Part shown: piece after piece, positions 27,349-53,993 of the stretch | How positions within the stretch are numbered: the stretch's first letter is position 1 | How the letters are laid out: the number at the start of each line of letters is the position of its first letter | NCBI GenBank assembly: GCA_020052415.1 | Contig: JAGVPB010000013.1 | Location: forward strand, 124,001-188,000 | Source: Bacteroidales bacterium | GTDB taxonomy: Bacteria > Bacteroidota > Bacteroidia > Bacteroidales > JAADJA01 | Direction of reading: 5' to 3' | Length of the DNA: 64,000 nt | The notes under the pieces: generated by a model | What the model saw: only the letters and a program-made list of their open reading frames with translations | What the model was told of the DNA's origin: nothing | Databases searched by the model: none | Position numbers and translations under genes: made by a program

Positions 27349-27388
27349 GGCGATAAAATTTATTGTTATTAAATGAATTCTTAAATTA

Positions 27389-27422
27389 CAAATGTAGCTA
27401 TTGTCATTGTTTATTTGACAAT
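27389..27422 (-). promoter_or_regulatory. promoter of the PNGase F-like gene
   Basis: On the minus strand TACATTTG (27396-27389) fits TAnnTTTG and an ATTG lies 22 bases upstream (27422-27419). It sits in the 89-base gap after susD and 41 bases before the preferred start, so this gene may have its own promoter. Confidence 0.45.
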
Positions 27423-27437
27423 TTAATTTAAATAGTT

Positions 27438-29069
27438 TCAGGGTATCCACCAGATTTTAAAATCAGGTGATTCGCCCCCCTGGTTTGCTATAGCTTGAGA
27501 CCAGTTTTCAGTATTGTATTCCTTTTCCGATTCAGGATAGGGTAATCTGAAATGGTTTCCAGGATCACCCTCCCGTGGTGTTAAACCGGTTCTGCGGACA
27601 AGGGCATAAACATCCCATGGTTGCCTGAAAGAATCAATCATCCACTGAGTGTATATATACATCAGCTTTTCTTCGTCTGTTGTTGCATTCCATGATCCGA
27701 ACTTCATCAAAACGGAAGCGGCATTCAGCGATGATGGAATGGTGACATAATCAGGAAAAGCCATTCCCGACAAAGGAAGTTTTGAATTTTCAGCAACCTG
27801 GGCCCACCAATCCACTGATGAATTGATTCCGTTCATATACTCAATATCCGCTTGATCCTGATCAACACCCACTCCTATCCCCCTGAAATAGGCCTCTGCT
27901 CTCAGGAAATGAATTTCGGCACCGGTAATAATTATAATGGGCATATAATCTTCGTCCCTGATCAGGAAATAATTGAATGGTGAATAGTTGCAGTCACCCT
28001 TGATTTGAAAAGCAGCAGGATTATCGCGGTGACCCTGGTAAGGAATGCCGCCTGACGAAGGAGTGTTTACTTCCGGAATTTGCGGAAACGCCTTCCATTG
28101 ATTATCCTTGTTAGTCTCAAAGAAAATATAAGCCCTTGGATCGAAGATACCGCTGCCGTCAAGGCTGTCGTGGTATGAGAACTGATGCCAGATATTTGAT
28201 CCCATTCGGAGGTTGTTGTGTTCCCGGAAGGACCAGTTCACACTTTCATTTTTAAATCCCATTGCTGCAGGCCATAAGCAGGCGCTTTCAAGAACAGGGG
28301 TCAGAAAATCATACCCCAGAAATACAGGTCTGTTGTTCTCAATCAAATCTATTATAATCTCACCCGCAAGATCAGGTTCCTTTTCTGACATCCGCATGGC
28401 GTGCCTCATCCTGAGTGAATTGGCAAGCTTTCTCCATTTCGTCATATCACCGTTGAAAAGCTTGTCGAATTGGATAAATGTGGTAAAGGGTTCAACCACA
28501 ACTGCTGTATCATTAATATTCTCGTCAGCCCATTTGAGGTCGTTGAGCAGAGCAAGATAAATATCGCGCTGGTGGTCATACTTAGGCCGGAGCAATTCGA
28601 GATTCTGAAATCCGTATCCGGCTTTAGAAAACGGAATGTCGCCAAACAGATCTGTTACTTTAAATGTCTTTAAAGCAAGGACTATTTTCAGCATGGCCCG
28701 CATATTAACATATCCCGCCTCCTCACCATAGCCATTAAAGCGCTTTTCGAGCTCCCTTATTTCCGGCAAAGCTGTGTAGTAATTACTCCAGATTTCTTCC
28801 GTGCCGAGCATGTAATTGCTCCAGGCTTCTTTTGTCAGCGCAGCAAGTTGTGTTTGTTTGTACAGGATTTCATTGTTGATGTAAAACTGTTCGTTCCACC
28901 CCAGGGGAAGGGTACTGATAATATTATTAAACAGGCTTCCGTCACTGGCTGTAGTAAAACCTTGGGGATTCGTGTTGATTTCCTCGAAATCTTTCGTGCA
29001 GGAAGCAAGAATAATAATTAAAGGTATTACCAGGAAATATGTTTTAAAACTTAAATTGATATTCTTCAT
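27438..29069 (-). CDS. SusD/RagB-family outer-membrane glycan-binding lipoprotein
   Basis: This 543-residue lipoprotein has a signal peptide with lipobox LASC (C24), so it is anchored to the outer membrane. The SusD fold is shown by CTKDFEEINTNPQGF at the N-terminus, an alpha-helical TPR-like body (LALKTFKVTDLFGDIPFSKA, DKLFNGDMTKWRKLANSLRM) and FLRAEAYFRG near the end. SusD proteins cap the SusC barrel and bind glycans or peptides for import. It follows susC by 12 bases. A Shine-Dalgarno AAGGAGG (29083-29077) overlaps the susC stop and fixes this start. The ligand is unknown. Confidence 0.95.
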   Translation of the reverse strand: MKNINLSFKTYFLVIPLIIILASCTKDFEEINTNPQGFTTASDGSLFNNIISTLPLGWNEQFYINNEILYKQTQLAALTKEAWSNYMLGTEEIWSNYYTALPEIRELEKRFNGYGEEAGYVNMRAMLKIVLALKTFKVTDLFGDIPFSKAGYGFQNLELLRPKYDHQRDIYLALLNDLKWADENINDTAVVVEPFTTFIQFDKLFNGDMTKWRKLANSLRMRHAMRMSEKEPDLAGEIIIDLIENNRPVFLGYDFLTPVLESACLWPAAMGFKNESVNWSFREHNNLRMGSNIWHQFSYHDSLDGSGIFDPRAYIFFETNKDNQWKAFPQIPEVNTPSSGGIPYQGHRDNPAAFQIKGDCNYSPFNYFLIRDEDYMPIIIITGAEIHFLRAEAYFRGIGVGVDQDQADIEYMNGINSSVDWWAQVAENSKLPLSGMAFPDYVTIPSSLNAASVLMKFGSWNATTDEEKLMYIYTQWMIDSFRQPWDVYALVRRTGLTPREGDPGNHFRLPYPESEKEYNTENWSQAIANQGGESPDFKIWWIP

Positions 29070-29081
29070 ATTTCATCCTCC

Positions 29082-32000
29082 TTAAAATGATGCATTAATT
29101 CCAAAAACAAAAGACCTTGTTCCGGGATACGAAGCCCACTCGAAACCCTGGGCATTTCCCGCACCCATGATGCCCTCCGGATTAATCTTGTCGGGAAGTG
29201 TTGTATAAAAATAAAACAGGTCACGACCGGTAATATTTAGACTCAGGTTTTGAAACACCTTTGACTTATTAATCCACTTTTGCGGCAGTATAAATGATAA
29301 TGAAATCTCTCGCATTTTCACCCAGGTGTTTTCGATGATACCGGGTGTCGAAAGAAAATGTCCCCAGCCACCTGCATTGGGCAGATATTTATAATAATAA
29401 TGTACCACTGTAGTGTTAGGTGTTCCGTCTTCATGCACTCCTTCAAGAATCACTCCGATATTGCTCGTGTTGCCATCAGGATCAGTGTAGGGTAAGCCTC
29501 CGCCTTCCCTTTCAATCAATGTTTCAGGGCTTTGGCCTGTTTGCAAAGCAATGACATAAGAGCCGCAATAGATATCTCCGCCCCACTTAGTATCAACCAG
29601 AAAGCTAAGTCGAAGATTTTTATATTTAAAATCGGTTGACCAGCCCGCGATGAAATCCGGTGAGGCATTACCGACAGGCACGCGGTTGTCAGTCACCAGG
29701 TATTTGGTTCCGGCATCATTTACTATTCGGTTACCATTGGCATCATAAACATAATCATACCCGTAAATAGTGCCATATTCATCTCCTTCGTGCAGGGCCA
29801 TTGCCGGTCCGTTCAAACCCCAGATATCAGCCAAAGGGAAGACATCGGCATAATTTCCCAGACTTATTACTTTATTCCGGTTACGCGCAAAATTGATCCC
29901 GGAGGTAATTAAGAAGTTTTTTTTCTGCAAAGGAACTGTATTCAGCTTGATTTCAAATCCCTGGTTGGTAAGTTCACCTTCGTTGATCGTAATGGTTGGC
30001 GCTCCTGAAGAAACCGGGACGGGAAGATCGGATAGGATTTGGTCAAAGGAATAATTGTAATAGTATGTAAAATAAAAGTCTATCCGGTTTTCGAAGAATC
30101 CCATATTGATACCTCCTTCATACGCATTCACTCCTTGCGGTTTCAGTAAGAAGGGTGGTATTGTACCTGGTAATCCCGATGTTTGTTCTCCACCGAACAA
30201 TCCAGTAGTATAATAAAAGTCTTTCACATAGGGATCGGTATCGGTCGCGGTTAAGGCTGCCCCGCCCCTCAGTTTCAAAAAGTTGAACCATGGGAGTCTC
30301 TCGCTGAAGCGAAAAGCCTCGGAGGCAATAAAACTCAGGGAGGCTGATGGATAAAAATAGGAGTTTTCGCCTGGAGGCAAAGTTGAAGACCAGTCGTTCC
30401 TGCCGGTCAGCTCGATGAAAAGGTATTTGTTATAAGAAATATTGAAAAACGAATAAACCGAATTGATCCGCTCCCGCCAAAACGATTCCTGAGGCACCAC
30501 TGAGCTTGCAGAATTTCCTGCCGACTGCAAGACGGTATTTCCGTTTTCGTCTGTATAATATGAGTTTTCCGTAAGGTTGAAAAAAGTGTACATGTTGGGA
30601 TAATACCACGTGCCTGAGTGCCCGCTGATCCCATAAATATTATGATTCCACCGGCTTGTGCCTGCAGCGAACATTAAATCGAATTTTGATCTGAGAAAAC
30701 TTTCTTTCGTGGCCATCAGCATCAGATCGAAATTATCGCCGACATTTCTAAACAGACTATTTGAATAATAACCGTTTTCGAGTCCGATCACATCGGTAGG
30801 TTCACGTTTTGTTTCATACTGATCAATTGTGTAATCCCTGCCTGCCTTTCCCATAATGTTTAACCAGGAGGTCACATCGTATGTAAGCGTCAGGATTCCA
30901 AGATATTTATCACGGATCAGGGTTGTATTGTTCTTATAGTAATTCCACCAGAGAAACTTATCCACATAATTATAGGGGTAATTATCCATCGGATTTCGTG
31001 ATCCATCGGGAAGCTCATAATATTCTTTATCCTCTCCCTGGTAGCTTGTCGGCCACGAATACAATAATCCTTTGTTGAATGAATTCGCATCTTCGCCTAT
31101 TATCGGGCTGTTCAGCCTGTGGAAATTGACATAGGAAAATACCAGGTCGGCTTTGACTTTATCCGAAACCTTCAGATTCACTCCCGTGTTGATTGTCGTC
31201 CTGTTGAAATCACTGTTGTCGATGATCGGGCTATGATCCTGTCGGGTCAGGGAAACCCTCATGGTTCCTCTTTCTCCTCCTCCGGAAGCAGATATATTGT
31301 GAGTTACGGTATAGCCATCGTGGTAAGGGATCTGCTGATAATCGGGATAGGGTGAATAGGCTCGCATAGTGCCGTCCCACCATTTCACCATTTGTCCCCC
31401 CATTTCAGGTCCCCACGACACACCTCCGCCGTAATAACCGAATTCGCCGATAGAAGAGGATGTTGCTCCTGTTGTATCTATGATGAGGTTCTGAGTCTCA
31501 TAGATCCCGGGGTAGCCCAGAACTGTATCGCCGTTCAGGGTATCGAGCGGAAACGTCGGGGGTGTAAATGAAATGGGGCCACCGGCACCATAAACATCCT
31601 GCACTTCCCTGAACCTGTAAGGAGTCGTGATCTTGTATTCCAGATTGTAATTGACTCCGATCCCATTTTGTCGGGTGCCTCTCTTGCTGGTAAGGTAAAC
31701 TACCCCGTTGGCGCCGCGTGAGCCATACAGAGCCGTAGCTTTCCCTCCGTATAGCACAGTCATGTTCTCCATGTCATACATGTTCAGGTCATTGATTGCA
31801 CTACCCCAGTCAACACCTCTTCCGACATCTGTTAAACCGGGAATATTTTCCATCGGAATTCCATCCACAACAAACAGAGGCTGATTATTTGCAGAAATAT
31901 TATTATTTCCACGGATAATGATTCGCGTAGATCCGCCTTCCACACCATCGGCCTGTGAAATCTGAACTCCGGGAGCTCTGCCAGAAATAGCGCTCACAAG

Positions 32001-32414
32001 GTTTTGGGCTCCTGACCTCGTAATTGCTTCTACATCGATCTTTTCGGCTGTATAGCCAATCTCCCTCTCCTGCCGCTTAATACCGAGCGCCGTTACGACG
32101 ACCCCCTCAATTTCTTTGGTGCTGACCAACATCCGCACATTAATCATCTTTTTTTCACCAGCTGTTATTTCCTGCTGATCGTACCCGACAAAACTGAAAA
32201 CAAGTACCGATCCCGCATTCACTCCCGCCAGCTTATAAAAGCCATCAATGTCAGTTACAGTTCCAGTGGTCGTGCCTTTCACATAAACTGAAACTCCCGG
32301 CAGCGATTTTTCGTCCTCAGCTGAAGTCACTGTTCCCGTGACGGTTCTTTCCTGCGAAAAAATCCACTGGGAAAAGAAAAGAATGAATAAAAACACGTGT
32401 AAAACTCTTTTCAT
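29082..32414 (-). CDS. SusC/RagA-family TonB-dependent outer-membrane transporter
   Basis: This 1110-residue protein has a signal peptide (MKRVLHVFLFILFFSQWIFS), a carboxypeptidase-D-regulatory-like domain (about 22-110: VTGTVTSAEDEKSLPGVSVY), a plug domain with the SusC/RagA signature (NISANNQPLFVVDGIPMEN) and a 22-strand barrel ending in an aromatic residue (RSFVFGINASF). It imports oligosaccharides or peptides with SusD, powered by TonB-ExbBD. No anti-sigma interaction (STN) domain is present and no ECF sigma factor, SusR or hybrid sensor lies nearby, so its regulator is elsewhere. The pair belongs with the PNGase F-like gene downstream. Confidence 0.96.
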   Translation of the reverse strand: MKRVLHVFLFILFFSQWIFSQERTVTGTVTSAEDEKSLPGVSVYVKGTTTGTVTDIDGFYKLAGVNAGSVLVFSFVGYDQQEITAGEKKMINVRMLVSTKEIEGVVVTALGIKRQEREIGYTAEKIDVEAITRSGAQNLVSAISGRAPGVQISQADGVEGGSTRIIIRGNNNISANNQPLFVVDGIPMENIPGLTDVGRGVDWGSAINDLNMYDMENMTVLYGGKATALYGSRGANGVVYLTSKRGTRQNGIGVNYNLEYKITTPYRFREVQDVYGAGGPISFTPPTFPLDTLNGDTVLGYPGIYETQNLIIDTTGATSSSIGEFGYYGGGVSWGPEMGGQMVKWWDGTMRAYSPYPDYQQIPYHDGYTVTHNISASGGGERGTMRVSLTRQDHSPIIDNSDFNRTTINTGVNLKVSDKVKADLVFSYVNFHRLNSPIIGEDANSFNKGLLYSWPTSYQGEDKEYYELPDGSRNPMDNYPYNYVDKFLWWNYYKNNTTLIRDKYLGILTLTYDVTSWLNIMGKAGRDYTIDQYETKREPTDVIGLENGYYSNSLFRNVGDNFDLMLMATKESFLRSKFDLMFAAGTSRWNHNIYGISGHSGTWYYPNMYTFFNLTENSYYTDENGNTVLQSAGNSASSVVPQESFWRERINSVYSFFNISYNKYLFIELTGRNDWSSTLPPGENSYFYPSASLSFIASEAFRFSERLPWFNFLKLRGGAALTATDTDPYVKDFYYTTGLFGGEQTSGLPGTIPPFLLKPQGVNAYEGGINMGFFENRIDFYFTYYYNYSFDQILSDLPVPVSSGAPTITINEGELTNQGFEIKLNTVPLQKKNFLITSGINFARNRNKVISLGNYADVFPLADIWGLNGPAMALHEGDEYGTIYGYDYVYDANGNRIVNDAGTKYLVTDNRVPVGNASPDFIAGWSTDFKYKNLRLSFLVDTKWGGDIYCGSYVIALQTGQSPETLIEREGGGLPYTDPDGNTSNIGVILEGVHEDGTPNTTVVHYYYKYLPNAGGWGHFLSTPGIIENTWVKMREISLSFILPQKWINKSKVFQNLSLNITGRDLFYFYTTLPDKINPEGIMGAGNAQGFEWASYPGTRSFVFGINASF

Positions 32415-41710: not shown

Positions 41711-42059
41711 TGGCTGGTTTAAAAAAGTGTTTTTCAAAGTGGACTCTAATTTTAAACTCACAGTTTTCTGAGCGATTCTCAAATGAAAGTTTTAATGATC
41801 GAACTTTGATGCTGACATTTTGTTAATATCACATCAGGTTTAAAACAAAAGGTTAATAAAAAGGTCCGGCTTTGCAAAACCCCCTAAAATTAACGCTTTT
41901 AAGATGCCGTTATCACATATTTAACAAATTGAATATTTGTATGATAACTGTTAATAAAATTTAGTTTATATTTGTCCGGTTGTTATGTTGATTATTTTTA
42001 ATAATTTAAAGGATTTACAGACAACTTTTTCGTATAACATCCTGTCTTTTTTTGTAATG

Positions 42060-42067
42060 TATTTTTG
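42060..42067 (+). promoter_or_regulatory. -7 box before the giant-cargo operon
   Basis: TATTTTTG, 69 bases before the GTG start at 42136. A second match, TATATTTG, lies at 41967-41974. The rest of the 425-base gap 41711-42135 is A+T-rich with no gene, hairpin terminator or repeat I can support. Two boxes suggest tandem promoters. Confidence 0.45.
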
Positions 42068-42135
42068 CAGTGTCTTTAAATCGCTGAAAGAGCGATGTTT
42101 TCAGGTAAATAAATTAACCACTAAATGATATAAGT

Positions 42136-45100
42136 GTGAAACATTTTGTACCATTTTTAAATAGGGCTATATTAGTAAGCCTGATTTTTACAAGTTTAGG
42201 CTCCAATGCCCAGATAAATATTTTGCCGGGTCCGGGAGTAACTCCCGTTGATATGGTTGAAAATATTGTCGGTGAGGGTATTATTTATGATAATGTGACC
42301 TTTCAGGGAGCGAATGGTTCACGGGGTATTTTTAATAACGGGCAATCCACAAACCTCGGTATTGCGAGCGGGATATTCCTGACATCCGGAGCCGGTTATG
42401 TAATTCCGGGTCCGAATTCTTCATGCAGTGCAGGCGCGAATAACGGAATGCCCGGTAATGCAGTTCTGAATTCCATTACAACTTCCACCACTTATGATGC
42501 GGCTGTTCTGGAATTCGATTTTATCCCCGAATCGGATACCATGAGGTTCAAATATGTCTTTGGCTCCGAAGAATACAATGAATGGGTGGGTTCATCCTAT
42601 AATGATGTCTTCGGATATTTTGTCACGGGACCCAATCCGCAGGGAGGTTTTTATACGAATAAAAATATTGCCATCGTTCCGGGATCTGCCAATACATCTG
42701 TAAAGATCAACAGTGTGAACAACGGCTATTCATCGTGCGGCGTTATTCCACCCGGACCTGGTACAAATTCCCAGTACTATGATGACAATACAGGGGGACT
42801 TTCGCTCGAATATGACGGATTTACAGTTGTTTTAACTGCATTTATTCTTGTTGTGCCCTGCGAGGAATACCACATATTGATCGGTATCGCGGATGCCGGA
42901 GACGGAATCTATGACTCAGGGGTTTTTATTGAAGAAAACAGTTTTGAAAGCCCTAAGATCGAGGTTGAAACTGTTCCTTACCCCATTGGAGTATCGGAAA
43001 ACATGATAGAAGGATGTGTAGAGGCCGATATTATTTTCCGCTTACCCAATCCTGATTATGCTCCGATTACCGTCTGTTACGAGATCGGCGGAACAGCAAT
43101 AAATGGTGATGATTACGAGGAAATTGACAACTGCATTACCTTTGAAGAAGGCGAGGATTCGGTTGCCGTTCATATTGTGCCTATTAAAGACGGAGAGCTT
43201 GAAGGCGAAGAAAATATTGTACTGATCATCGAAAACACGCTCGGCTGTATTGTGCGATACGATACGGTCGAATTTATCATCATTGATTATGTGGACATGC
43301 TTACAGAGACGAGCCCCAATACGATGATCTGTGAGGGTCAGCAGATCGAGATATGGGTCAATACGGTACTGGGAATCCCACCATATACTTATGACTGGGA
43401 GGGATTTTCGATCAATAACGACACGATTACCGTTTCACCGGATACAACCACAACTTTCATGATAAATGTATTGGACATGTGTCTCGATACCGTTACAGAT
43501 TCAGTAAAGGTCATCGTCTTTCCTACTCCGGATATTGACCTGGGTAATGATTCAGTAATTATTTGCGAGGGGGATACTTTGATATTAAATGCCGGCGGAG
43601 GTTATATCGGATATTACTGGCAGGACGGATCAGGCGATTCTACTTATACCGTAACGGAATCGGGCCTTTACAGTGTACTTGTTACCGGGCCTGGAGGCTG
43701 TATGGGAAGCGATTCACTTTATGTTGATGTCTCAATAATAGATGTCTATCTTGGATCCGATACCACTATTTGCATTGGCGACACAATTGTTTTTGATCCC
43801 GGAGGAGGATTCCTTTCCTACATCTGGCAAAACGGCTCCCAAAATCAGCAATTTACCGCCTGGGAAACCGGAACATATTGGGTACAGGTTGGCAACGGGG
43901 AATGTTCGGATATTGATTCCATTTACCTGTATGTTGATGATCCTGCAGTTGGCCTGTTCATCGGAAATGATACAACGATTTGTGCCAATGATGAAATCAC
44001 CCTGTCTCCCGGAGGAGTTTATAATTCCTACCTGTGGTCAACAGGTGATACCACAGCGAATATCACGGTTGGTTTGCCGGGAACATATACACTGGACGTC
44101 ATCAGCGGATGCGGAACTGCCTCCGATCAGATCACGATCAGTAACTGGCCATATCCCGATCCGGGTTTGGGTGAGGATATAAATCTCTGCTATAACGAAT
44201 CGGTCACGCTGCAACCCTCATTAGGATTTTCATCCTATGTTTGGCAGGATAATTCAACCTTGCCGAACTTTCTCGTGACTCAAAGCGGATTATATTATGT
44301 AATTGTAACAGATTTCAATGGATGTCAGGGTGGCGACTCGGTTTATGTGGATATAGCATCAATTGTGGATCTGGGAGAAGATTCACTGAATCTGTGTACA
44401 GGATCTACAATTTCACTGAATGCCGGTAATGATTTCGATTTTTATACATGGAGTACGGGTGAATACGGGATTCCATCAATTAATATTACAACGGGTGGAA
44501 TGTATAGTGTCAGCGTGAATTATACTTTCGGTTGTACTTCCGAAGATTCGGTTTACATCACGGAATACCCGATTCCTGTTGCGGCCATTACAGGGGATAA
44601 CAGTTTCTGTACCGGTGATAGCGTGGTTCTTACCGCTCCCGTAGGCAATTATGTTTATGCCTGGTTTTTGGATAACAACCAAATTTCTACTCAGCCAAGC
44701 ATCGAAATTTACCAGGGAGGCAATTATATGGTGACAATGGAGAACCTGTGCGGCGAGGACACTGAGGCCATTGACGTATTGGAAAACTCATTACCCAATG
44801 TTTTTCTGGGAGAAAGCATTACTCTTTTCCCCGGTGAAAGTATAACTCTGGAAGTCAGCAGTGGTTACGAAACCTATGTTTGGAATAACATACCCGGAAC
44901 GAGCAACACTTATACAATTTCGTATGAAGACATAATAACGGATACCACGATCATGGTAGAAGTTACGGATGCCAATAGCTGTAAAAGCTCTGACGATGTT
45001 CTGATAGAGATCTATAATGTTATAGTCTATAAAGTCATTACTCCTAATGGCGACGGGGATAACGATATGTTCAAGCCGGCTCCTGAAGGATGGAGTGGTA

Positions 45101-45306
45101 TAAATGATCATACCATGGTCGTATTCAACCGTTGGGGCGAAAAAGTCTGGGAATCCAATAATTTCCCTGATGGCTGGGATGGCAAACAAAATGGCAAATA
45201 CGTTTCCGACGGTACTTATTTCTGGGTGCTCGAGGTTTTCTACGGGCCCCATGATGTTAAAAAGGTTTACAAAGGAAGTCTTACTGTATTGGGTACTGAA
45301 AATTAA
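42136..45306 (+). CDS. large secreted choice-of-anchor-L protein with T9SS type B (gliding-type) C-terminal domain
   Basis: The 1056-residue protein begins at GTG with a signal peptide (KHFVPFLNRAILVSLIFTSL). A choice-of-anchor L domain occupies about residues 30-270 (EFDFIPESDTMRFKYVFGSEEYNEWVG). A Calx-beta-like domain follows (ENIVLIIENT), then six or seven Ig/PKD-like modules built around YTYDWEG, YYWQDGSGDSTYTV, SYIWQNGSQNQQFTA and related repeats of GLYSVLVT. The end is the gliding-motility-associated type B sorting domain (VITPNGDGDNDMFKP, MVVFNRWGEKVWESN, DGTYFWVLEV). It should be displayed on or released from the cell surface by the T9SS. Role is likely adhesion or motility-like. It is the first gene of a four-gene operon with a PorP/SprF partner. 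Confidence 0.87.
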   Translation: MKHFVPFLNRAILVSLIFTSLGSNAQINILPGPGVTPVDMVENIVGEGIIYDNVTFQGANGSRGIFNNGQSTNLGIASGIFLTSGAGYVIPGPNSSCSAGANNGMPGNAVLNSITTSTTYDAAVLEFDFIPESDTMRFKYVFGSEEYNEWVGSSYNDVFGYFVTGPNPQGGFYTNKNIAIVPGSANTSVKINSVNNGYSSCGVIPPGPGTNSQYYDDNTGGLSLEYDGFTVVLTAFILVVPCEEYHILIGIADAGDGIYDSGVFIEENSFESPKIEVETVPYPIGVSENMIEGCVEADIIFRLPNPDYAPITVCYEIGGTAINGDDYEEIDNCITFEEGEDSVAVHIVPIKDGELEGEENIVLIIENTLGCIVRYDTVEFIIIDYVDMLTETSPNTMICEGQQIEIWVNTVLGIPPYTYDWEGFSINNDTITVSPDTTTTFMINVLDMCLDTVTDSVKVIVFPTPDIDLGNDSVIICEGDTLILNAGGGYIGYYWQDGSGDSTYTVTESGLYSVLVTGPGGCMGSDSLYVDVSIIDVYLGSDTTICIGDTIVFDPGGGFLSYIWQNGSQNQQFTAWETGTYWVQVGNGECSDIDSIYLYVDDPAVGLFIGNDTTICANDEITLSPGGVYNSYLWSTGDTTANITVGLPGTYTLDVISGCGTASDQITISNWPYPDPGLGEDINLCYNESVTLQPSLGFSSYVWQDNSTLPNFLVTQSGLYYVIVTDFNGCQGGDSVYVDIASIVDLGEDSLNLCTGSTISLNAGNDFDFYTWSTGEYGIPSINITTGGMYSVSVNYTFGCTSEDSVYITEYPIPVAAITGDNSFCTGDSVVLTAPVGNYVYAWFLDNNQISTQPSIEIYQGGNYMVTMENLCGEDTEAIDVLENSLPNVFLGESITLFPGESITLEVSSGYETYVWNNIPGTSNTYTISYEDIITDTTIMVEVTDANSCKSSDDVLIEIYNVIVYKVITPNGDGDNDMFKPAPEGWSGINDHTMVVFNRWGEKVWESNNFPDGWDGKQNGKYVSDGTYFWVLEVFYGPHDVKKVYKGSLTVLGTEN

Positions 45307-45321
45307 TCTAATCGTGAAATC

Positions 45322-48300
45322 ATGAAAAATAAGAAATTACTCTTTCTCTTTGTACTTTTCCTCAGCATTTCACAGATTTTTGCAGAGGACTATTATTGGG
45401 TTGGCGGCCAGGGTAACTGGTCCGACCTGAACAGCTGGCGGACAGCCTCCGGTCAGATACCGAATGAGGTGCCTGATTCCGAAGATAATGTCATCTTTAA
45501 CCAGTATTCCTTTGAGAATGACTATGACACTGTTTTCATACTTTCAGGAAACCCGTACTGTAAAAACATGACCTGGGTAAATATTCAGGATACAGTTGTG
45601 ATGTATGGCAACAATTTAAATGCAATCTTTAATATTTACGGGTCAATAACCTTTCATCCCAAAGTTAAAAATGAGTATTACGGAAAAATCTACTTTGCTT
45701 CGGATTTACCCGGAAATACCATTACCTGCGCGGGGACAAGGTTCCCCGGCGACATCTGGTTCGAAGGGAGCGGTGAATATATCCTGCAGGATACCTTATT
45801 TGTTTATGATTCAACCGACTGGCAAGCAATCATTGACACTCTCAACCCGGTTGAGCCTTCACAACCAAATCCCCTCATCATTCATGAAAACGGATATTTC
45901 AATTCCAATAACCAGACAATCATTAACAGAGGTTTCATTATGTCGGGTAATAAAGCCCGTAAGGTGAACCTTCAGAACAGTCATATATTAATGGTGGGAA
46001 GTTGGATACTCAGCGCTGAAAATCTCGATTTCGATGCCACCAATAGCCATATTCTGATCGGCGGAGATATGAATAATTTTGCAGGTGAAACAGTAACCTA
46101 TCATGATATTGATTTTTTACCGGTTGACGGCTCCATTAAAAATACTGATATCCGGTCTATTATCCGAAAGGTCCATTTCCTTGGTAGCGGAACTCTTGAC
46201 GGTAAAAAGACTCCCGGAATAGAAGGTAACTTCACGATTGACACCCTGCTGTTTGAGGGAGCAATCACATTGATGGGACCTATAGTTTGTGCAGTAAAAG
46301 GGATAGACAATTATATTTGGTACACACGGGTCAATATGGTCCATGGTGAGTTTGAAACCAATGAATCATTTTACCACCGAGTTGACTTTAACGGAAGTGA
46401 CTTTGGGCTAGGGCTTCCGAGTTTTATAAAAGGGCCCGGAAATGAATCGGATAGTATTTTCTTTAATGTTCCCAAGGGAATTATAGCAGGGCGACATCAG
46501 ATCAATGATTATCTGTTCTTTAAAACAGATGGTGTTGTCGGGGCCGATTTGGAAATGAAAAATGAAATCAATCATGCAGTTTTCAGCGGCAACGGATGGT
46601 TCGAAGGCAATAACGATTTTAATAAAGTAACTCTGAATACCGGATTCACTTACTTGATGAATGCCGACTCCCTCATTCATCCGGGAAGCGTAGAAACGAA
46701 TACCTATATCCAAACCATTAATGCTATCGAGGTCACCAATAATGACGATTGCTTGATTGGCATTACCTATCTGCAGTCGGCACAAAAATTAACCAGTGCA
46801 GTGATGGATTATACCGGACCACCGGTTGGATTCAAATACTTTGCAGTTAAAGACATTAAAAATATCGGTTCTACCATCAGCATCACTAAAGGTATTAATT
46901 TAGGTCATAATACAGGATTCTATTTTGATCCGGCGCCAGGTGCGCAATTGGAACCGCGAACACTTTATTGGGTAGGTGGACAGGGAAATTGGTTTGATGA
47001 GACTCACTGGTCACTGGTTTCAGGTGGAGGTGGAGGTCCCGGAGATCAATGTCCGCCAATCCTACTGGATGATGTTTTCTTCGATGCCAATTCCGGTTTT
47101 CAGGCTGAAGACACAGTTTATGTAGATCGCAAGAATGTTTTTGTCAACGACATGACCTGGACGGATGATGTTCCAAACTATCCTTGCCTGGAAGGCGCTG
47201 ACACCTGCGCATTTCGTATGTGGGGATCACTGAAATTAAGTCCGGCAATGTGCTATTGGTTTTGGGGAAATATGTATTTTGAATCGGAGGATGACGATGA
47301 ATGGGAAACAATTGATGTGACGTGGACCTATGATAGTAATTTAGTATATTATTTACTTAACCAAACTTATTTTTACGGTGAGAACGGAAAATGGAGATTC
47401 GACAGCCAGGTATGGAACCTGTTTGATTCGCTCTTCGTGAAGATGGGAAGCATCGAACTGCAGAATGACACTCTTGAAACCCTTAATTTTATTGCTGACG
47501 ATACACTTCAGAAAGGAATATATTTTCTTGAAAAAACACTTTGCGTAGTACACCAGTACCAGGCGAATGCATGGCTGCTGAATGCATGGTTGCCAGATTC
47601 GGTATTTTTATACGATTTCGGTGAATCAACCATACGGGCTATGGGTGACATAACTCCGCCTATGGGAGCGCCTCCGGGATTCTGCAACATCCGAACCTAT
47701 GTCGGAGAAGTGGACTACCACAATATTGAATTTTCAACACCGGATGTCAGCGGCATCAAATCAATGCTTATAAGCGAAAGCCAGAACAGCTATAATCTGG
47801 TGGATTACTATGTATTGTATGGTGATGCAGTCGGAACCGGGTTTATTGATACCCTAACATATAAAAGGGTTTGGGATATTGATCCGGTTACCGGGGATTC
47901 AGTTATAGTTGTAAGCGCCGACGGATGTAAGATACGTAATAATTTCACAACCAACTTCTTGTTCGCTGAAAGCTATGGAGATACCCTGATAGGCAACCAG
48001 CAGATTGATACGGCTTATTTCAAGGGTGACAACGGAGCTATGTTTGGTTATAATGAAATAGGTTACCTTCAGGCTGACAGCCTTATGACCATGATGCTGA
48101 AAAATTATGTCTGGGATAAAGCCATTCTTTATGGAAATGGAAAGTTTAAGGGAAACAATAAAATGGAAAGGCTTGAACTTACGGCTACTAAAAAATACTA
48201 TTTCCAGCATGATGTAATGGATTCCGGTGAATCCGATACAACAATAATTGTAAAGGACCTGCTTATGTTGGGTGCCTGCGACGGGACCATCAGGATACAA

Positions 48301-50847
48301 TCCGACTCAATAGGTACAAAAAGTTATATTCTCTATCAGGCTCTTTCACCAACCTATCCGGATTTTACAGCCAAATACGCCTCTATCCGCGATATATACA
48401 TGGTTCCTTATAACGGGAATGAATATATCGCTGAAAATTCGGTGGATTTGGGAAATAATACAAACTGGACATTTACACTGACCGAAGACCAGAATTATTA
48501 CTGGGTCGGTGGCACAGGGAACTGGGGCGACTGGAATCACTGGTCATTTACCAGTGGCGGAGTGCCTATTCCTGAACAATGTACACCTAAAGAAATAAAT
48601 ACAGTAATTTTTGATGATAATTCCTTCTTAACTGGTAGCGACACAGTGACAGTTGATGTGAAAAATGCATATTGCAACAGTATGTATTGGAAGAATTCTT
48701 CCATGTATGATCCACTTTTTATAAATAGTGATACTACTTCCGGATTGTACATTTACGGTTCACTCGAATTAAGCCACTCGATGAACTATGCCTATTCGGG
48801 AACTATATTCTTCGACCAGTTCAATGATCCTTTGGTTCTTGCCGATACAATTACTACAAGGGGTAATTTATTCCTTAACCATATCCGGTTCCAGGGAATA
48901 AATGATGAAGTTGTCCTTGGCGATGATGTTACCATGTTTATTGATCCTCCGAATAGTATTTTCAGGAGTGTTTTCCTCGAACACGGTGCATTGGTTTTGA
49001 ATGGGAATCACTTGTCAACGGCCGGATTCTATTCAACTTATAAAAATAACAGGACCCTGAACATGGTTAATTCCGATGTTACCCTGCGATATGACTATGG
49101 AAAAGCCTGGAGGGTAAATGGCGCCAATCTGAACCTTTTCGCACATAACTCCAATATTTACAATCAGTCTCTGCAAGGCAGCATGATGACCGAGAACGGT
49201 GATTATCTCAAGTACCATAATGTTTACCTTAATGGGTTTACCGATAGCCTTGCCAATTTAAATAATGTAGTGGAATATAATATTATTTCAGCCAATGAAA
49301 TTTGGGGTATTATAACAGGAGATTTTATCGCGGATACCATTTTACTGCGTGGGCAGTATTCAGGGATTTATAAGAAATCTAAAACCAATGTTGTGATTAT
49401 TGACACGGCTTCCGGTTCAATCAATCAAAATCATCTGATCAACAAATGTATTGTAAACCGTTACGGTGAAATCAACGGTTCCAATTATATCAAATATTGT
49501 GTTTTTTATGACGATGGAAAATTTACCGGCAATAATGACTTTGATACATTGATACTCTTCCCCGGCGGAGGCAATACCCAGTATCAGGGCAACTGGTTTA
49601 CTTTCCAGTCCGATTCCACACAAACGATACATGACTCGCTTTATATCCGGGGAAATCAATGCAGCAGCATAACCCTTATTTCGACCAATACTTCCAAACT
49701 TGCTTACCTGAAAAAAGATAAGCCGGGTTATGATGTTTCATGCGATTATCTGGATATTTATAATGTATCGGCAGTAGATGATTTTGTTGATTTTTATGCC
49801 GGCGATTACAGCAAAGCGCTTCCCGACCCGACCAATCCGCCACCAGGATGGATTTTCGAAAATGCACAGGGATATGTTTACGGATTCAATGGCAGGACTG
49901 AGCGTTTCTGCGAGGGTACCGAGTTTGTAATTGATGCAGGTGACTTTAACGGGGATACCTATACCCAATACTTTTGGCAGGGATCACCGTTGCCGGGTGA
50001 TGATACTTATACCATAACTGAACCGGGAATTTATCATATCCAGGTGCAATATTTTGAAGGCTGCACAGTAGATGATTATATCGTTATTGAACTGCATTAT
50101 CCTCCATTGGCAGACATGGATGATGGTCCATTCTGCGAAGGAGATCCTATCAATGTGTATGTTTCTCCTGATAATAATGCATATAAATATTATTGGTCCT
50201 CTGGTGGAATAACTGAGCAGATCATTGCAGATACTTCAATGAACGGAGGTATTTATGTACTGGTAGAGGATACGATCAATGGTTGTGTAGCAACAGTAGA
50301 GAAAACGATTGAAGTTAAACCGGTTCCGAAACCCGAAGAAGTACTGGGTGAGGATGTGTGGCTTAATTTTGGGGAAACGGTTACCATTGATGCCGGTGAA
50401 GGGGAATCCTACGAGTGGTCTTCATTGCCTGAAACTACAGTATCGGATTCAACATCCCGGATCATTACTGTTCCGGGAGCGAATGATCCGACGCTTTACC
50501 TTGTTCAGGTTGAGTTAGATGGATGCTTTGGACAGGGAGAGAAACTGGTAAATATGTATCCTCTGAGCAGGCTTGGAATTCCAACCGCATTTTCACCCAA
50601 TAAAGAGGATGATATAAATCCGCGACTTTATTTATTAGGTAGCGGCTTTGCGCAAGTAACATTCAGAATTTTTGACCGATATGGTAAATTGGTTTTCGAA
50701 TCAACGGATCCAAACGGCAGCGAGGGCTGGGATGGAACTTTCGAAGGTAGGGATCTTGAGATGGACGTTTACACTTATTATGTTAAAGTAATTTATCAGG
50801 ATGGCGGTGTAGAGGAACGGAAAGGAAATGTCACTTTACTTAGGTAA
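45322..50847 (+). CDS. giant modular secreted protein with T9SS type B sorting domain
   Basis: At 1841 residues this is the largest protein here. After a signal peptide (KLLFLFVLFLSISQIFA) come three ~520-residue modules, each opening with YYWVGG.GNW (residues ~24, ~548 and ~1059). Each opening is followed by an acidic PDSEDNVIFN-like segment and strand-rich sequence with repeated G..L..NNDF/NKM words; the first two modules close with LGHNTGFYF or LGNNTNW. The modules look like beta-solenoid or carbohydrate-binding-like folds, but I cannot name the family. Two Ig-like domains (FCEGTEFVIDAG, FCEGDPINVYVS) and a type B domain (IPTAFSPNKEDDINP, FRIFDRYGKLVFEST, YTYYVKVIYQ) end it. It lies 15 bases after the first cargo gene and 3 before porP/sprF. 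Confidence 0.85.
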   Translation: MKNKKLLFLFVLFLSISQIFAEDYYWVGGQGNWSDLNSWRTASGQIPNEVPDSEDNVIFNQYSFENDYDTVFILSGNPYCKNMTWVNIQDTVVMYGNNLNAIFNIYGSITFHPKVKNEYYGKIYFASDLPGNTITCAGTRFPGDIWFEGSGEYILQDTLFVYDSTDWQAIIDTLNPVEPSQPNPLIIHENGYFNSNNQTIINRGFIMSGNKARKVNLQNSHILMVGSWILSAENLDFDATNSHILIGGDMNNFAGETVTYHDIDFLPVDGSIKNTDIRSIIRKVHFLGSGTLDGKKTPGIEGNFTIDTLLFEGAITLMGPIVCAVKGIDNYIWYTRVNMVHGEFETNESFYHRVDFNGSDFGLGLPSFIKGPGNESDSIFFNVPKGIIAGRHQINDYLFFKTDGVVGADLEMKNEINHAVFSGNGWFEGNNDFNKVTLNTGFTYLMNADSLIHPGSVETNTYIQTINAIEVTNNDDCLIGITYLQSAQKLTSAVMDYTGPPVGFKYFAVKDIKNIGSTISITKGINLGHNTGFYFDPAPGAQLEPRTLYWVGGQGNWFDETHWSLVSGGGGGPGDQCPPILLDDVFFDANSGFQAEDTVYVDRKNVFVNDMTWTDDVPNYPCLEGADTCAFRMWGSLKLSPAMCYWFWGNMYFESEDDDEWETIDVTWTYDSNLVYYLLNQTYFYGENGKWRFDSQVWNLFDSLFVKMGSIELQNDTLETLNFIADDTLQKGIYFLEKTLCVVHQYQANAWLLNAWLPDSVFLYDFGESTIRAMGDITPPMGAPPGFCNIRTYVGEVDYHNIEFSTPDVSGIKSMLISESQNSYNLVDYYVLYGDAVGTGFIDTLTYKRVWDIDPVTGDSVIVVSADGCKIRNNFTTNFLFAESYGDTLIGNQQIDTAYFKGDNGAMFGYNEIGYLQADSLMTMMLKNYVWDKAILYGNGKFKGNNKMERLELTATKKYYFQHDVMDSGESDTTIIVKDLLMLGACDGTIRIQSDSIGTKSYILYQALSPTYPDFTAKYASIRDIYMVPYNGNEYIAENSVDLGNNTNWTFTLTEDQNYYWVGGTGNWGDWNHWSFTSGGVPIPEQCTPKEINTVIFDDNSFLTGSDTVTVDVKNAYCNSMYWKNSSMYDPLFINSDTTSGLYIYGSLELSHSMNYAYSGTIFFDQFNDPLVLADTITTRGNLFLNHIRFQGINDEVVLGDDVTMFIDPPNSIFRSVFLEHGALVLNGNHLSTAGFYSTYKNNRTLNMVNSDVTLRYDYGKAWRVNGANLNLFAHNSNIYNQSLQGSMMTENGDYLKYHNVYLNGFTDSLANLNNVVEYNIISANEIWGIITGDFIADTILLRGQYSGIYKKSKTNVVIIDTASGSINQNHLINKCIVNRYGEINGSNYIKYCVFYDDGKFTGNNDFDTLILFPGGGNTQYQGNWFTFQSDSTQTIHDSLYIRGNQCSSITLISTNTSKLAYLKKDKPGYDVSCDYLDIYNVSAVDDFVDFYAGDYSKALPDPTNPPPGWIFENAQGYVYGFNGRTERFCEGTEFVIDAGDFNGDTYTQYFWQGSPLPGDDTYTITEPGIYHIQVQYFEGCTVDDYIVIELHYPPLADMDDGPFCEGDPINVYVSPDNNAYKYYWSSGGITEQIIADTSMNGGIYVLVEDTINGCVATVEKTIEVKPVPKPEEVLGEDVWLNFGETVTIDAGEGESYEWSSLPETTVSDSTSRIITVPGANDPTLYLVQVELDGCFGQGEKLVNMYPLSRLGIPTAFSPNKEDDINPRLYLLGSGFAQVTFRIFDRYGKLVFESTDPNGSEGWDGTFEGRDLEMDVYTYYVKVIYQDGGVEERKGNVTLLR

Positions 50848-50850
50848 TAA

Positions 50851-51870
50851 ATGAAATATACTCTCAAATTTGTGCTAGCGATGATTCTGCTTGCCTCCGG
50901 ATTATCTCAGTCCGGAGCACAGGACGTCCATTACTCTCAGATGTACGCTACACCGCTTTACATCAATCCTGCATTTACGGGAAATCATGACTGCGATTAC
51001 AGGGCAGCAGTAAATTATCGTAAACAGGCATATTTTACAAAGCCTTATGAAACATACACAGCCTGGGGCGATACCCGGTTCTACCCGGAATTTTTGAGGA
51101 GAAACGGATGGATCGGTTTGGGTACTCATTTGTTTTATGATAATGCAGGTGATGCGCCATTGCAAAAGATACAGGCAATGATATTTTCAGCCTATAGTCA
51201 GGGTTTCAATATTGACAATTCCATTTATGGAAGCCTTGGTGTTGGTTTGGGAATAACAAACAGAAGCGTCAATAAAGCAAACCTGATTTTTGAAGATCAA
51301 TGGGATTCAACCCTTTATGTTTTCACCGATAATGGCACTAAGGATCCATTATTTAATAATTCGACCTCTATTTTTTATATGGATTTCAATATTGGCATGA
51401 CATTTCATCACCTGGTTAACGAAAATTGGATGTACGAGGCAGGTATGAGTATAAACCACATCACCAAACCACGGGAGTCTTTTTTCGGAACAAGTAATAA
51501 CCGTGTGGGAAGAAAAATCATCGCCCATGCAACAGTTCAGCATAAATTATCAGACAAAGTGCTGTTAAAACCTGAAGTCTATTATATTGCGCACATGGGT
51601 TCCGATGAATTGATCATGGGTGCTAACCTTGTTCGTGGTGTTGAGGAATTGAAACTTTACGGTGGATTATGGTACCGCTTTGGACGGGATATTATTCCAA
51701 GTATAGGAATAGAGTTCAATAAAATGACCATCATGTTTACCTATGATATAAATGTATCAAAACAACGCCTGGCCAGCAAATACCAGGGTGGATTTGAGGT
51801 ATCAATAATCAAAAGATTTTGTGCCCGGAAATCCACCAGGCGTGAACCCTGTAAGATGTTACAATTTTAG
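50851..51870 (+). CDS. PorP/SprF-family type IX secretion outer-membrane protein
   Basis: The 339-residue protein has a signal peptide (LKFVLAMILLASGLSQSGA), then the family start QDVHYSQMYATPLYINPAFTG at about residues 24-44 and a barrel of aromatic-alternating strands. PorP/SprF proteins are outer-membrane barrels needed for secretion or anchoring of type B cargo (SprF for SprB in Flavobacterium). It is encoded three bases after the giant type B cargo and two genes after another, and is therefore the likely dedicated partner. The Cys-Lys-Arg tail (CARKSTRREPCKML) is unusual. Confidence 0.92.
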   Translation: MKYTLKFVLAMILLASGLSQSGAQDVHYSQMYATPLYINPAFTGNHDCDYRAAVNYRKQAYFTKPYETYTAWGDTRFYPEFLRRNGWIGLGTHLFYDNAGDAPLQKIQAMIFSAYSQGFNIDNSIYGSLGVGLGITNRSVNKANLIFEDQWDSTLYVFTDNGTKDPLFNNSTSIFYMDFNIGMTFHHLVNENWMYEAGMSINHITKPRESFFGTSNNRVGRKIIAHATVQHKLSDKVLLKPEVYYIAHMGSDELIMGANLVRGVEELKLYGGLWYRFGRDIIPSIGIEFNKMTIMFTYDINVSKQRLASKYQGGFEVSIIKRFCARKSTRREPCKMLQF

Positions 51871-51887
51871 AAAAGCAATCTGTGCAA

Positions 51888-53993
51888 ATGAGAATACCCT
51901 TTACACTCCTCACCATAATTATTATTTATTTTCAGGGTTACTCACAATGGTATTGGGAACATCCTGTGCCCCAGGGTAACCACCTTACGGAACTGTCTTT
52001 CAATGGCACTTCTCCCATAGGTTTTGCTGTCGGTGATTATGGCATCATTATTAAGACCAATAATTTCGGCATGGACTGGGAACTGATGGATTCGGTCACA
52101 ACGGAAAACCTGAGTTCTGTTTTCATGACCGATAACCATGCTTATATCGTAGGGGACAATGGAATAATGCTGAAAACAGATGATTTCGAAAACTGGTATC
52201 AAACCGAATCGTTCACCCATTATAAGCTCCACTCGGTTTATTTTACCGATGATGACCACGGATATGCCGCCGGATACCAGGGTATTATATTAAAAACTAA
52301 CGGCGGAGGAGAGTTCTGGCAATTCATCTTATCAGGAACACCGTTTTCATTGTACTCCATTTATTTTGCGACTGATGATACCGGTATTATTGTCGGCGAT
52401 AGTGGTGTGATCCTGAGAACCTCAGATGCTGGATTGACCTGGAACCCCACAGGAAGCTATACCAATCCATTGTATGATGTTCATTTTCCTTCAGCGTCAA
52501 CAGGATACATCGCCGGTAAAGATGGGATTATATTAAGGTCAAACGACGCCGGATTAACCTGGAGTGATGTTTCATCACCCATCATCAAGACCGATCTTTA
52601 TTCCGTACATTTTTATAACGACACAGTAGGTTTTGTTGCAGGTGCCGATGGAATCATGATCCATACTTATGATGGGGGTGCACTTTGGAACCTGGACACT
52701 ACAAGGACAACACTTGCCATTAATTCGGTTTATCAGTTTTATAATGATACTATTTGCGATACAGTGATTTGTTGCGGTGAATTTGGGATGGTACAAAGGA
52801 CATCTACCTGCGGAAATTTTACTAATGTCACCGGAAGCAGTTATCAGACCTTCAGTTCTGTGCTCTTTTTACCGGACTCAAGCGGTATTGCCGTCGGCGG
52901 TTCACCCTTCACCGACGAGCCGCTCATTTACAGAACACCCAAACCCGGAGAACCGTGGTCAGAAATTACACTTGACTCTGTACCTCACTATACTACCGAC
53001 ATCAGCTTTGCAACTGACAGTATTGGTTACATTTCAGCAAGAAAAGGTAAAATTTATAAAACCACTGATGCCGGAAATTCATGGATTCCAATCCGCACCG
53101 ATGTAACTTTAGACTTATACACCGTTTGCTTTCCCGACTCCAGCCGAGGTTATGCAGCCGGAGTGGATGGGTTGATAATAAAAACCACCACTATTGATAC
53201 CATGTGGACGCAACTGGTTACCGGAACGGCAAATAACCTTTTTGCATTGCATTTTTTCGATGAGGAAAATGGTTATGCTGCTGGTGAGAACGGTACCCTG
53301 CTACGGATAAAAAACAGCGGTCAAAATATTTCTAACGTAAATACCGGAACTTCAGTCACACTTTATGACCTCTGTTTTCCAACCGACACGCTCGGCTTTA
53401 TATGCGGATACGATGGAAAAATATTTAAACTCAGGAGGTATCCCTTAAGTGATTCCCTGTTCCCCATTAATTCCGGAGTGACTGTGCCTCTGAATAAAAT
53501 CTGGTTCCCTAATCCGGATACCGGCTATATTGCAGGAGAAGTCGGAACGATATTGAAGTCCACTGACGGTGGAAATACCTGGTATCCGCAATATACAGGG
53601 ACAACGAACAGCCTTAGGGGTATTTATTTCTTTAATGGTTACAAAGGCATAGCTGTTGGCGCCGGACTAACAATTTTATCAACTGAAAACGGCGGAGGTG
53701 GTGTGATACTTCCGGCTGTTCCTGAAGTTACACTCGCTGAAGACCATATTCTGTTATATCCAAATCCGGCCTCAGGATTCACTGTTGTGGAATATGAAAC
53801 TGAACATTTCCGGAAGGCCGAGATACAACTTTTTGATTTGACCGGGAGGGTAATCAACTCACAGCAAACGTCCATTCTTTCAGGACGAAAAAACAAGGTT
53901 CGGATAGAAACCATAGATTTGAATCCCGGTATTTACCTGGTCATGATAGAGGCTGATGATAGATACTTTACGAAGAAGCTGGTCATTTATTAA
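51888..53993 (+). CDS. Ycf48/Asp-box propeller T9SS type A cargo
   Basis: This 701-residue protein has a signal peptide (MRIPFTLLTIIIIYFQGYS). About twelve beta-propeller-like blade repeats with the Asp-box pattern follow (TSDAGLTWNP, SNDAGLTWSD, TYDGGALWNL, TTDAGNSWIP, STDGGNTWYP), together with GY.AG..G.I..T strands. This is the Ycf48/BNR type of scaffold, generally a binding fold without enzymatic activity. A type A sorting domain ends it (LYPNPASG, LDTTGR-like LFDLTGRVIN, KLVIY). A GTG at 51882 would add two residues. It is 17 bases after porP/sprF and closes the apparent operon. Confidence 0.85.
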   Translation: MRIPFTLLTIIIIYFQGYSQWYWEHPVPQGNHLTELSFNGTSPIGFAVGDYGIIIKTNNFGMDWELMDSVTTENLSSVFMTDNHAYIVGDNGIMLKTDDFENWYQTESFTHYKLHSVYFTDDDHGYAAGYQGIILKTNGGGEFWQFILSGTPFSLYSIYFATDDTGIIVGDSGVILRTSDAGLTWNPTGSYTNPLYDVHFPSASTGYIAGKDGIILRSNDAGLTWSDVSSPIIKTDLYSVHFYNDTVGFVAGADGIMIHTYDGGALWNLDTTRTTLAINSVYQFYNDTICDTVICCGEFGMVQRTSTCGNFTNVTGSSYQTFSSVLFLPDSSGIAVGGSPFTDEPLIYRTPKPGEPWSEITLDSVPHYTTDISFATDSIGYISARKGKIYKTTDAGNSWIPIRTDVTLDLYTVCFPDSSRGYAAGVDGLIIKTTTIDTMWTQLVTGTANNLFALHFFDEENGYAAGENGTLLRIKNSGQNISNVNTGTSVTLYDLCFPTDTLGFICGYDGKIFKLRRYPLSDSLFPINSGVTVPLNKIWFPNPDTGYIAGEVGTILKSTDGGNTWYPQYTGTTNSLRGIYFFNGYKGIAVGAGLTILSTENGGGGVILPAVPEVTLAEDHILLYPNPASGFTVVEYETEHFRKAEIQLFDLTGRVINSQQTSILSGRKNKVRIETIDLNPGIYLVMIEADDRYFTKKLVIY

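Follow-up and report, generated by a model that had tools for sequence, protein, structure and literature searches.

Four closely spaced genes in a Bacteroidales bacterium raise the question of what they build at the cell surface and whether it moves. They lie between positions 42,060 and 53,993 of the window, by which we mean the whole analyzed stretch of 64,000 nucleotides (contig JAGVPB010000013.1, 124,001 to 188,000). The original prediction, made from the sequence alone, was of a surface adhesin system with its own secretion partner. Calling open reading frames (ORFs) on the window gave genes A, B, C, and D on one (+) strand, with the predicted gaps of 15, 3, and 17 bases, the last measured to the ATG of D at 51888. 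Matches to Pfam- and NCBIfam-type families also agreed with the types assigned at first: a choice-of-anchor-L protein (A), a modular protein (B), a PorP/SprF protein (C), and an Asp-box protein (D). A and B carry type B sorting domains (42.7 and 45.7 bits against TIGR04131, cutoff 35), and C matches PorP_SprF/T9SS_PorP_fam at 152.1 bits (cutoff 90.55). The genome of this bacterium encodes SprA (2566 bits), PorU, PorK, PorL, and PorN, parts of the type IX secretion system (T9SS). Type B cargo, an adjoining PorP/SprF carrier, and a T9SS translocon are all present, and A-B-C is very probably a T9SS type B cargo-carrier system. Our best overall explanation, at a probability of about 0.5, is a set of several type B adhesins that C links to a moving track. 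Feature coordinates are given in Table 1.

The locus had been offered as a candidate for an uncharacterized surface structure. That did not hold, since the kind of system is already known; the locus adds to it C's cysteine tail and a cluster of several cargoes. It is probably a track-linked, multi-cargo variant, by analogy with SprB/SprF of Flavobacterium johnsoniae (PMC12635249, PMC12618676, PMC9143113; here and below, what we cite from these three papers comes from parts of them). There, as here, a giant type B cargo has its PorP/SprF carrier just downstream, the operon lacks a PorE gene, the carrier has cysteines in its C-terminal tail, and the genome holds T9SS and Gld genes. The periplasmic tail of SprF contains a Cys-Xaa-Cys motif, and its second cysteine bonds Cys343 of GldK and thereby couples the adhesin to the moving track; export does not require the pair (PMC12635249). 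For PorG, the cysteine in Porphyromonas gingivalis PorK is Cys356, in an RGCF motif (PMC12635249). A partner cysteine is present in this bacterium as well: Cys319 of its PorK, in KGCFLGN, aligns with the GCFLGN of P. gingivalis PorK. The locus differs from SprB/SprF in having two cargoes upstream of the carrier, beta-helix modules in a cargo, and a wider cysteine spacing, and movement is inferred here. Mobile cargoes come from operons without a PorE gene and a static one from an operon with PorE (PMC12618676). PorP-PorE-PG1035 (PMC9143113) and Fjoh_3952/3951/3950 (PMC12618676) are cases of static anchoring; they share with the locus a type B cargo and a PorP-family carrier, but here the operon has no PorE/OmpA gene and the carrier has a tail cysteine.

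The two cysteines in the tail of C have nine residues between them (C-x9-C), and those of the orthologues with both have 8 to 11. The terminal one is present in all 16 C orthologues, window included, at -6 to -8 from the end. Since the motif is not Cys-Xaa-Cys, we did not file C as SprF proper. The wide-spaced pair is a new feature. It resembles the tail of a PorP next to gldJ in the same genome (cysteines at -16 and -4, against -16 and -6 in C). The comparison of C orthologues and a sample chosen for similarity to C both left out L080 to L094, except L090, because they lie, judged by length, on the same contigs as loci already included, and L069, which is the window itself. A search of PDB sequences with the C-family profile gave no match up to E 1. 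Besides SprA, the genome encodes GldB, GldD, and GldJ, the last at 450.4 bits, just below the cutoff of 458.2. With these genes present, and with C in the class that has the cysteine and no OmpA gene, the simplest account is an adhesin set on a track-linked PorP. We put the track linkage of C itself at about even odds.

On the track-linked reading, A and B would pass through Sec to the periplasm and then through the SprA translocon. Barrel C would take up both, and the two would remain attached to it as long surface adhesins: three beta-helix modules with repeats in B, a jelly-roll head on repeats in A. The tail cysteine of C may form a disulfide with PorK/GldK, as in SprF; the adhesins would then travel with the track, whereas a PorE/OmpA protein would hold them in place. 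A single carrier would serve more than one cargo, with the cargo set expanded in some relatives. D would be a type A protein handled by PorV, co-encoded here and dispensable.

If a tail cysteine means the track and PorE means static anchoring, the two features should avoid each other among PorPs. We counted unfused PorPs in two sets as having both features/tail cysteine only/operon-linked OmpA only/neither; the counts rest on home-made profiles, of which the OmpA one was built from 11 regular-expression seeds, with few members checked by Pfam/NCBIfam. For set 1, 40 genomes were drawn across the phylum besides the bacterium's own. Eight genomes had any PorP at E 1e-10, giving 57 PorPs, of which one fragment was dropped and six ORFs longer than 460 aa were kept out of the count. 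The 50 counted gave 3/24/13/10 (p = 0.0008). The six set aside were three PorP-OmpA fusions without a tail cysteine, one ORF with a tail cysteine and no OmpA, and two with neither. Set 2 consisted of 80 PorPs among the matches listed for 35 genomes of the class, one genome per family. We took the first and last listed in order of score, one more in 17 genomes, and the sole one in 7; G148, G154, G155, and G156 had none among the matches listed. We left aside three ORFs longer than 460 aa, one of which carries an OmpA domain and no tail cysteine, and the 77 counted gave 0/34/16/27 (p = 0.00003). Together (n = 127) the sets gave 3/58/29/37 (p = 3e-7). An OmpA gene was linked to 3 of the 61 PorPs with a tail cysteine versus 29 of the 66 without one, and the cysteine was absent in 29 of 32 OmpA-linked PorPs. 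This near-exclusion of tail cysteine and operon-linked PorE is new. We found no general rule of this kind in the titles, abstract beginnings, and parts of papers that our literature search covered, and one may be in print. The fused forms of set 1 are at L187, L188, and L217 (G135), where the PorP/SprF barrel and an OmpA domain share one ORF with no tail cysteine; L187 was confirmed by Pfam. At L220, L236, L256, and other set 2 loci, a PorP with neither feature has a type B gene of about 1,150 to 1,330 aa just upstream.

Carriers near gldJ and near porK differ in their tails. The terminal cysteine is present in 15 of 16 gldJ-linked PorPs overall: in all 10 of set 2 with gldJ in the fetched stretch (nine as a pair), in the single one of set 1 (L189), and in 4 of 5 in an order-level sample. 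Among the porK-linked PorPs of set 2, none of 17 has it, and 15 have a cysteine at -18 to -22. The remaining set 2 PorPs, with neither gene nearby, have it in 8 of 50. Core PorPs near porK (e.g., L057:8221-9189) commonly have a cysteine at about -19, often as GYC. A PorP directly before gldJ recurs (L056:10866-13468 and relatives); its tail is mostly C-x11-C, with CPEF or CPSF at the end.

A rival account is that C holds its cargo unmoving, through a PorE/OmpA protein encoded elsewhere or through a bond to a closed PorKN ring in a nongliding cell. An OmpA gene does accompany some cysteine-tailed PorPs in their operons (L203, L095, L097, L098), and a chimera with the C-terminal domain (CTD) of Fjoh_1123, exported by a shared shuttle, was mostly static and moved in 3% of cells (PMC12618676). 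We nevertheless consider a static adhesin rather unlikely. We saw no OmpA/PorE gene in the operon or at the loci of the C orthologues, a PorE elsewhere in the genome not having been looked for; no C orthologue has lost the terminal cysteine; and the gldJ-linked PorPs have the same kind of tail as C.

The track-linked reading can be carried further, tentatively, to the family as a whole. PorP/SprF proteins across Bacteroidota may fall into two opposite anchoring classes, one tied to the track by a terminal cysteine (mobile) and one to peptidoglycan by PorE/OmpA (static, sometimes fused), with a remainder in neither; the operon in the window would be a track-driven, multi-cargo array of the first class. 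If so, the last dozen residues of the carrier, together with the next gene, could often tell whether a type B protein moves or stays in place. Gliding-type adhesin transport would reach this lineage, and the SprF mechanism would become a testable rule.

Several points weigh against both the track linkage and this extension of it. The signal in set 1 comes from two genomes, G119 and G123 (0/7/11/2); in the other six the exclusion is absent (3/17/2/8, p = 1.0). Counting only cysteines in the last 12 aa, a stricter definition of the tail, leaves 0/18/16/43 in set 2 (p = 0.016) and 3/42/29/53 in the two sets combined (p = 0.0002). The two features occur together in 3 of the 127 PorPs (L203, L185, L207) and, in a third sample, chosen for similarity to C, in 3 of 63 (L095, L097, L098), all three ending PCARF. 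The counted rows are paralogues, not independent events. The C-x9-C tail is unlike the Cys-Xaa-Cys called invariant in close homologues of SprF (PMC12635249). The bacterium's own genome is a draft, and GldJ is so widespread (85 of 99 genomes) that it says little about whether a cell glides. Finally, 37 of the 127 have neither feature, so tail cysteine and PorE do not cover the family, and the gldJ-linked PorP of G098 (L149) has lost its terminal cysteine and keeps the upstream one; these last two points lowered the probability that we give to the two classes.

We had also considered GldJ itself as an indicator of gliding. C-like PorPs were found in 67 of the 85 genomes with GldJ versus 1 of the 14 without it (p = 4e-7). 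GldJ was counted at at least 200 bits, with the bacterium's own genome included and a broken copy in G089 (209.7 bits) taken as present; C-like PorPs without GldJ were found in G068, which is 85% complete. We give this association little weight because the presence of T9SS was uncontrolled and the C query also matches gldJ-linked PorPs.

Which genes belong to the unit? The original prediction proposed the order of the four genes in relatives as a check. We searched for C in 99 genomes and annotated the contigs of the matches. A C orthologue (55 to 65% identity) was found in 12 of 16 same-genus genomes, followed by relatives at 50% in G061 and 43% in G098; none was found in G004 (73% complete) or G007 (87% complete). 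In G001 and G009, A is at the expected place and the contigs end before where C would begin. A is followed by B at all nine readable loci (G000, the bacterium's own genome; G001, G005, G010, G011, G014, G015, G016, G061). B is followed by C at all 12 (G000, G003, G005, G006, G010, G011, G012, G013, G014, G015, G016, G061). These pairs sit on two separate contigs in G061 and G016. Unlike these, D follows C at only 9 of 15 loci (G000, G002, G003, G005, G008, G010, G012, G013, G014) and is missing after it in G006 (where only 378 bases follow), G011, G015, G016, G061, and L090. All four genes share a contig in G000, G005, G010, and G014. The proposed order was thus borne out for A-B and B-C and failed for D.

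Additional cargo genes are found at this locus in five same-genus relatives. A second B-like gene (26 to 29% identity to B) is present in G002, G011, G012, G015, and G016, and A-like genes are added in G012 (three) and G015 (one). Up to five type B genes share a contig with one PorP. Two of the A-like proteins were checked; both carry a type B sorting domain, and neither matches choice-of-anchor L. At L090, the gene before C is B-like, with 34% identity to B and 37% to the second B-like type, and an A-like gene follows C. The order is C-like, B-like, A-like in G098 and G056, and in G098 the tail of a type B protein precedes the C relative. This clustered multi-cargo arrangement around one carrier is new.

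Does one carrier serve both A and B? Such sharing is known: the PorP-family shuttle Fjoh_1677 serves three type B cargoes (PMC12618676). What was demonstrated there, one carrier for several cargoes, is inferred here, and the three cargo genes of Fjoh_1677 are orphans away from the shuttle, whereas here they are clustered with the carrier. The bacterium's own genome has 11 type B sorting-domain places (8 over the cutoff) and five PorP/SprF proteins. One of these heads the row PorK, PorL, a 532-aa ORF, and PorN; one adjoins gldJ; and one faces, in convergent orientation, a gene whose product matches the type B domain below the cutoff. Eight of the 11 places are on contigs without a PorP, so carriers are shared or distant. 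With such numbers, and with shuttle sharing on record (PMC12618676), the description of C as a dedicated partner became uncertain; the conserved A-B-C pairing supports the rest of that prediction, a type B surface adhesin system with a secretion partner. C could instead carry B alone, its neighbor, while A uses another PorP such as the gldJ-linked one. The strong pair specificity of type B CTDs (PMC12618676) and the cargo places without a nearby carrier make this possible, if doubtful; the unbroken A-B and B-C adjacency and the precedent of one shuttle for three cargoes speak against it. We lean toward C being shared by A and B.

Table 1. Features of the locus, in window positions
Feature	Position	Strand	Basis or description
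TAnnTTTG promoter-like element upstream of A	42060..42067	+	Motif match, weak
Gene A, 1056 aa, GTG start	42136..45306	+	Type B sorting domain behind a choice-of-anchor L head, a Calx-beta stretch, and repeats
A, choice-of-anchor L domain, aa 40-270	42253..42945	+	Family match and predicted structure
A, CHU_C / type B CTERM domain, aa 963-1051	45022..45288	+	Family match
Gene B, 1841 aa	45322..50847	+	Type B sorting domain behind three YWVGG modules and a part resembling A's repeats
B, module 1, aa 22-545	45385..46956	+	Repeat module
B, module 2, aa 546-1056	46957..48489	+	Repeat module
B, module 3, aa 1057-1524	48490..49893	+	Parallel beta-helix by structure prediction (pLDDT 89.6)
B, CHU_C / type B CTERM domain, aa 1752-1838	50575..50835	+	Family match
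Gene C, 339 aa, PorP/SprF-family outer-membrane carrier	50851..51870	+	Family match
C, Cys324, tail cysteine	51820..51822	+	Kept in 13/15 aligned rows and L090
C, Cys334, terminal cysteine	51850..51852	+	Kept in 15/15 aligned rows and L090
Gene D, 703 aa (GTG) or 701 aa (ATG at 51888)	51882..53993	+	Asp-box/YCF48-like, type A sorting domain; outside conserved unit

D had been described as an Asp-box cargo, possibly an accessory subunit of the surface structure. It is indeed PSII_BNR/YCF48-like, but its sorting domain is type A (Por_Secre_tail, 50.2 bits; TIGR04183, 45 bits, cutoff 23), not type B. Type A cargo is carried by PorV and type B by PorP/SprF proteins (PMC12635249, PMC12618676), and PorV, not C, should therefore handle D. 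A place in the same structure is suggested by the 17-base gap after C and by the loci at which D follows C. It is made improbable by the type A domain, by the six loci without D, by the identity of D to the window's copy (32 to 45%, against 60 to 65% for C in the same eight genomes), and by four D-related proteins elsewhere in the genome. On these grounds we no longer favor the role of accessory subunit, and we rejected a four-gene unit forming one complex. Because D is optional, type A, and paralogous, the conserved unit is A-B-C. Carriers with and without a following D were also considered as separate clades. The tree needs only one change, but branch support is 48/58, and four of its 18 rows fall in no group.

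We then asked what the two cargoes look like. The three modules of B each start with YWVGG, and the only known-family match in B is its sorting domain. We predicted the fold of module 3 (16 aligned rows; pTM 0.86). Foldseek found no match to this model under E 0.001, and VIA-align over Foldseek's own lists returned beta-helix proteins: AlgE4 at Z 15.6 (265 residues, 3.2 Å) and PL6 lyases at Z about 14; an antifreeze protein and some autotransporter passengers scored close to these. On this model, the most likely form of B is a series of parallel beta-helices followed by repeats and the sorting domain. Since module 3 aligns best with the AlgE4 and PL6 lyase helices (Z 13.8 to 15.6), B might bind or act on polysaccharide rather than be an adhesin as such. 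We regard this as a poor prospect: identity in these alignments is only 7 to 11%, the antifreeze, autotransporter, and other beta-helices score nearly alike, and no Pfam enzyme family was found in B up to E 0.1. B-like modules occur in one other protein of the genome, of 1,642 aa, on C54.

The head of A matches choice_anch_L at 241.3 bits (cutoff 27), and the repeats after it are Ig-like in look, judged by eye. A model of the head (aa 24 to 275, 29 aligned rows; pLDDT 89.9, pTM 0.89) looks like a jelly roll. Foldseek gave no match under E 0.001. VIA-align over Foldseek's own lists gave a best Z of 7.4; among the matches near Z 6 to 7 were carbohydrate-binding modules, MAM domains, and gingipain adhesin domains. 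A Z below 8 names only a common arrangement, the jelly roll in general, and we set aside carbohydrate binding by the head as a guess at that level. The phrase "choice-of-anchor L" gave no match in our literature search.

The narrow gaps suggest that the operon is read as a single transcript. Separate promoters between the genes had been named as an objection; TAnnTTTG, the Bacteroidota -7 element, was found in none of the three gaps by a motif scan and stands upstream of A in two copies, at 41967 and 42060. This promoter evidence is weak because the + strand of the window holds 39 copies of the motif. Counts of sigma-70-type promoters (43 versus 37.9) and terminator-like elements (9 versus 10.6) are near shuffle level and uninformative. 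Sec signal peptides at the N termini were judged by eye only. The nearest relatives of the host bacterium are known only as assembled environmental genomes.

Around the operon, an upstream nadC-like gene (named by eye) and a BrkB gene hold the same place in several genomes, as does a downstream 485-aa gene with no Pfam family over the cutoff. Elsewhere in the window, positions 24847-32414 (- strand) encode a type A protein that has a PNGase F C-terminal match as well as a laminin-G-like domain; SusD-like and TonB-receptor genes are its neighbors. Another T9SS part, PorZ, is encoded at 3631-5988, with 609.5 bits against NF052228 (cutoff 260).

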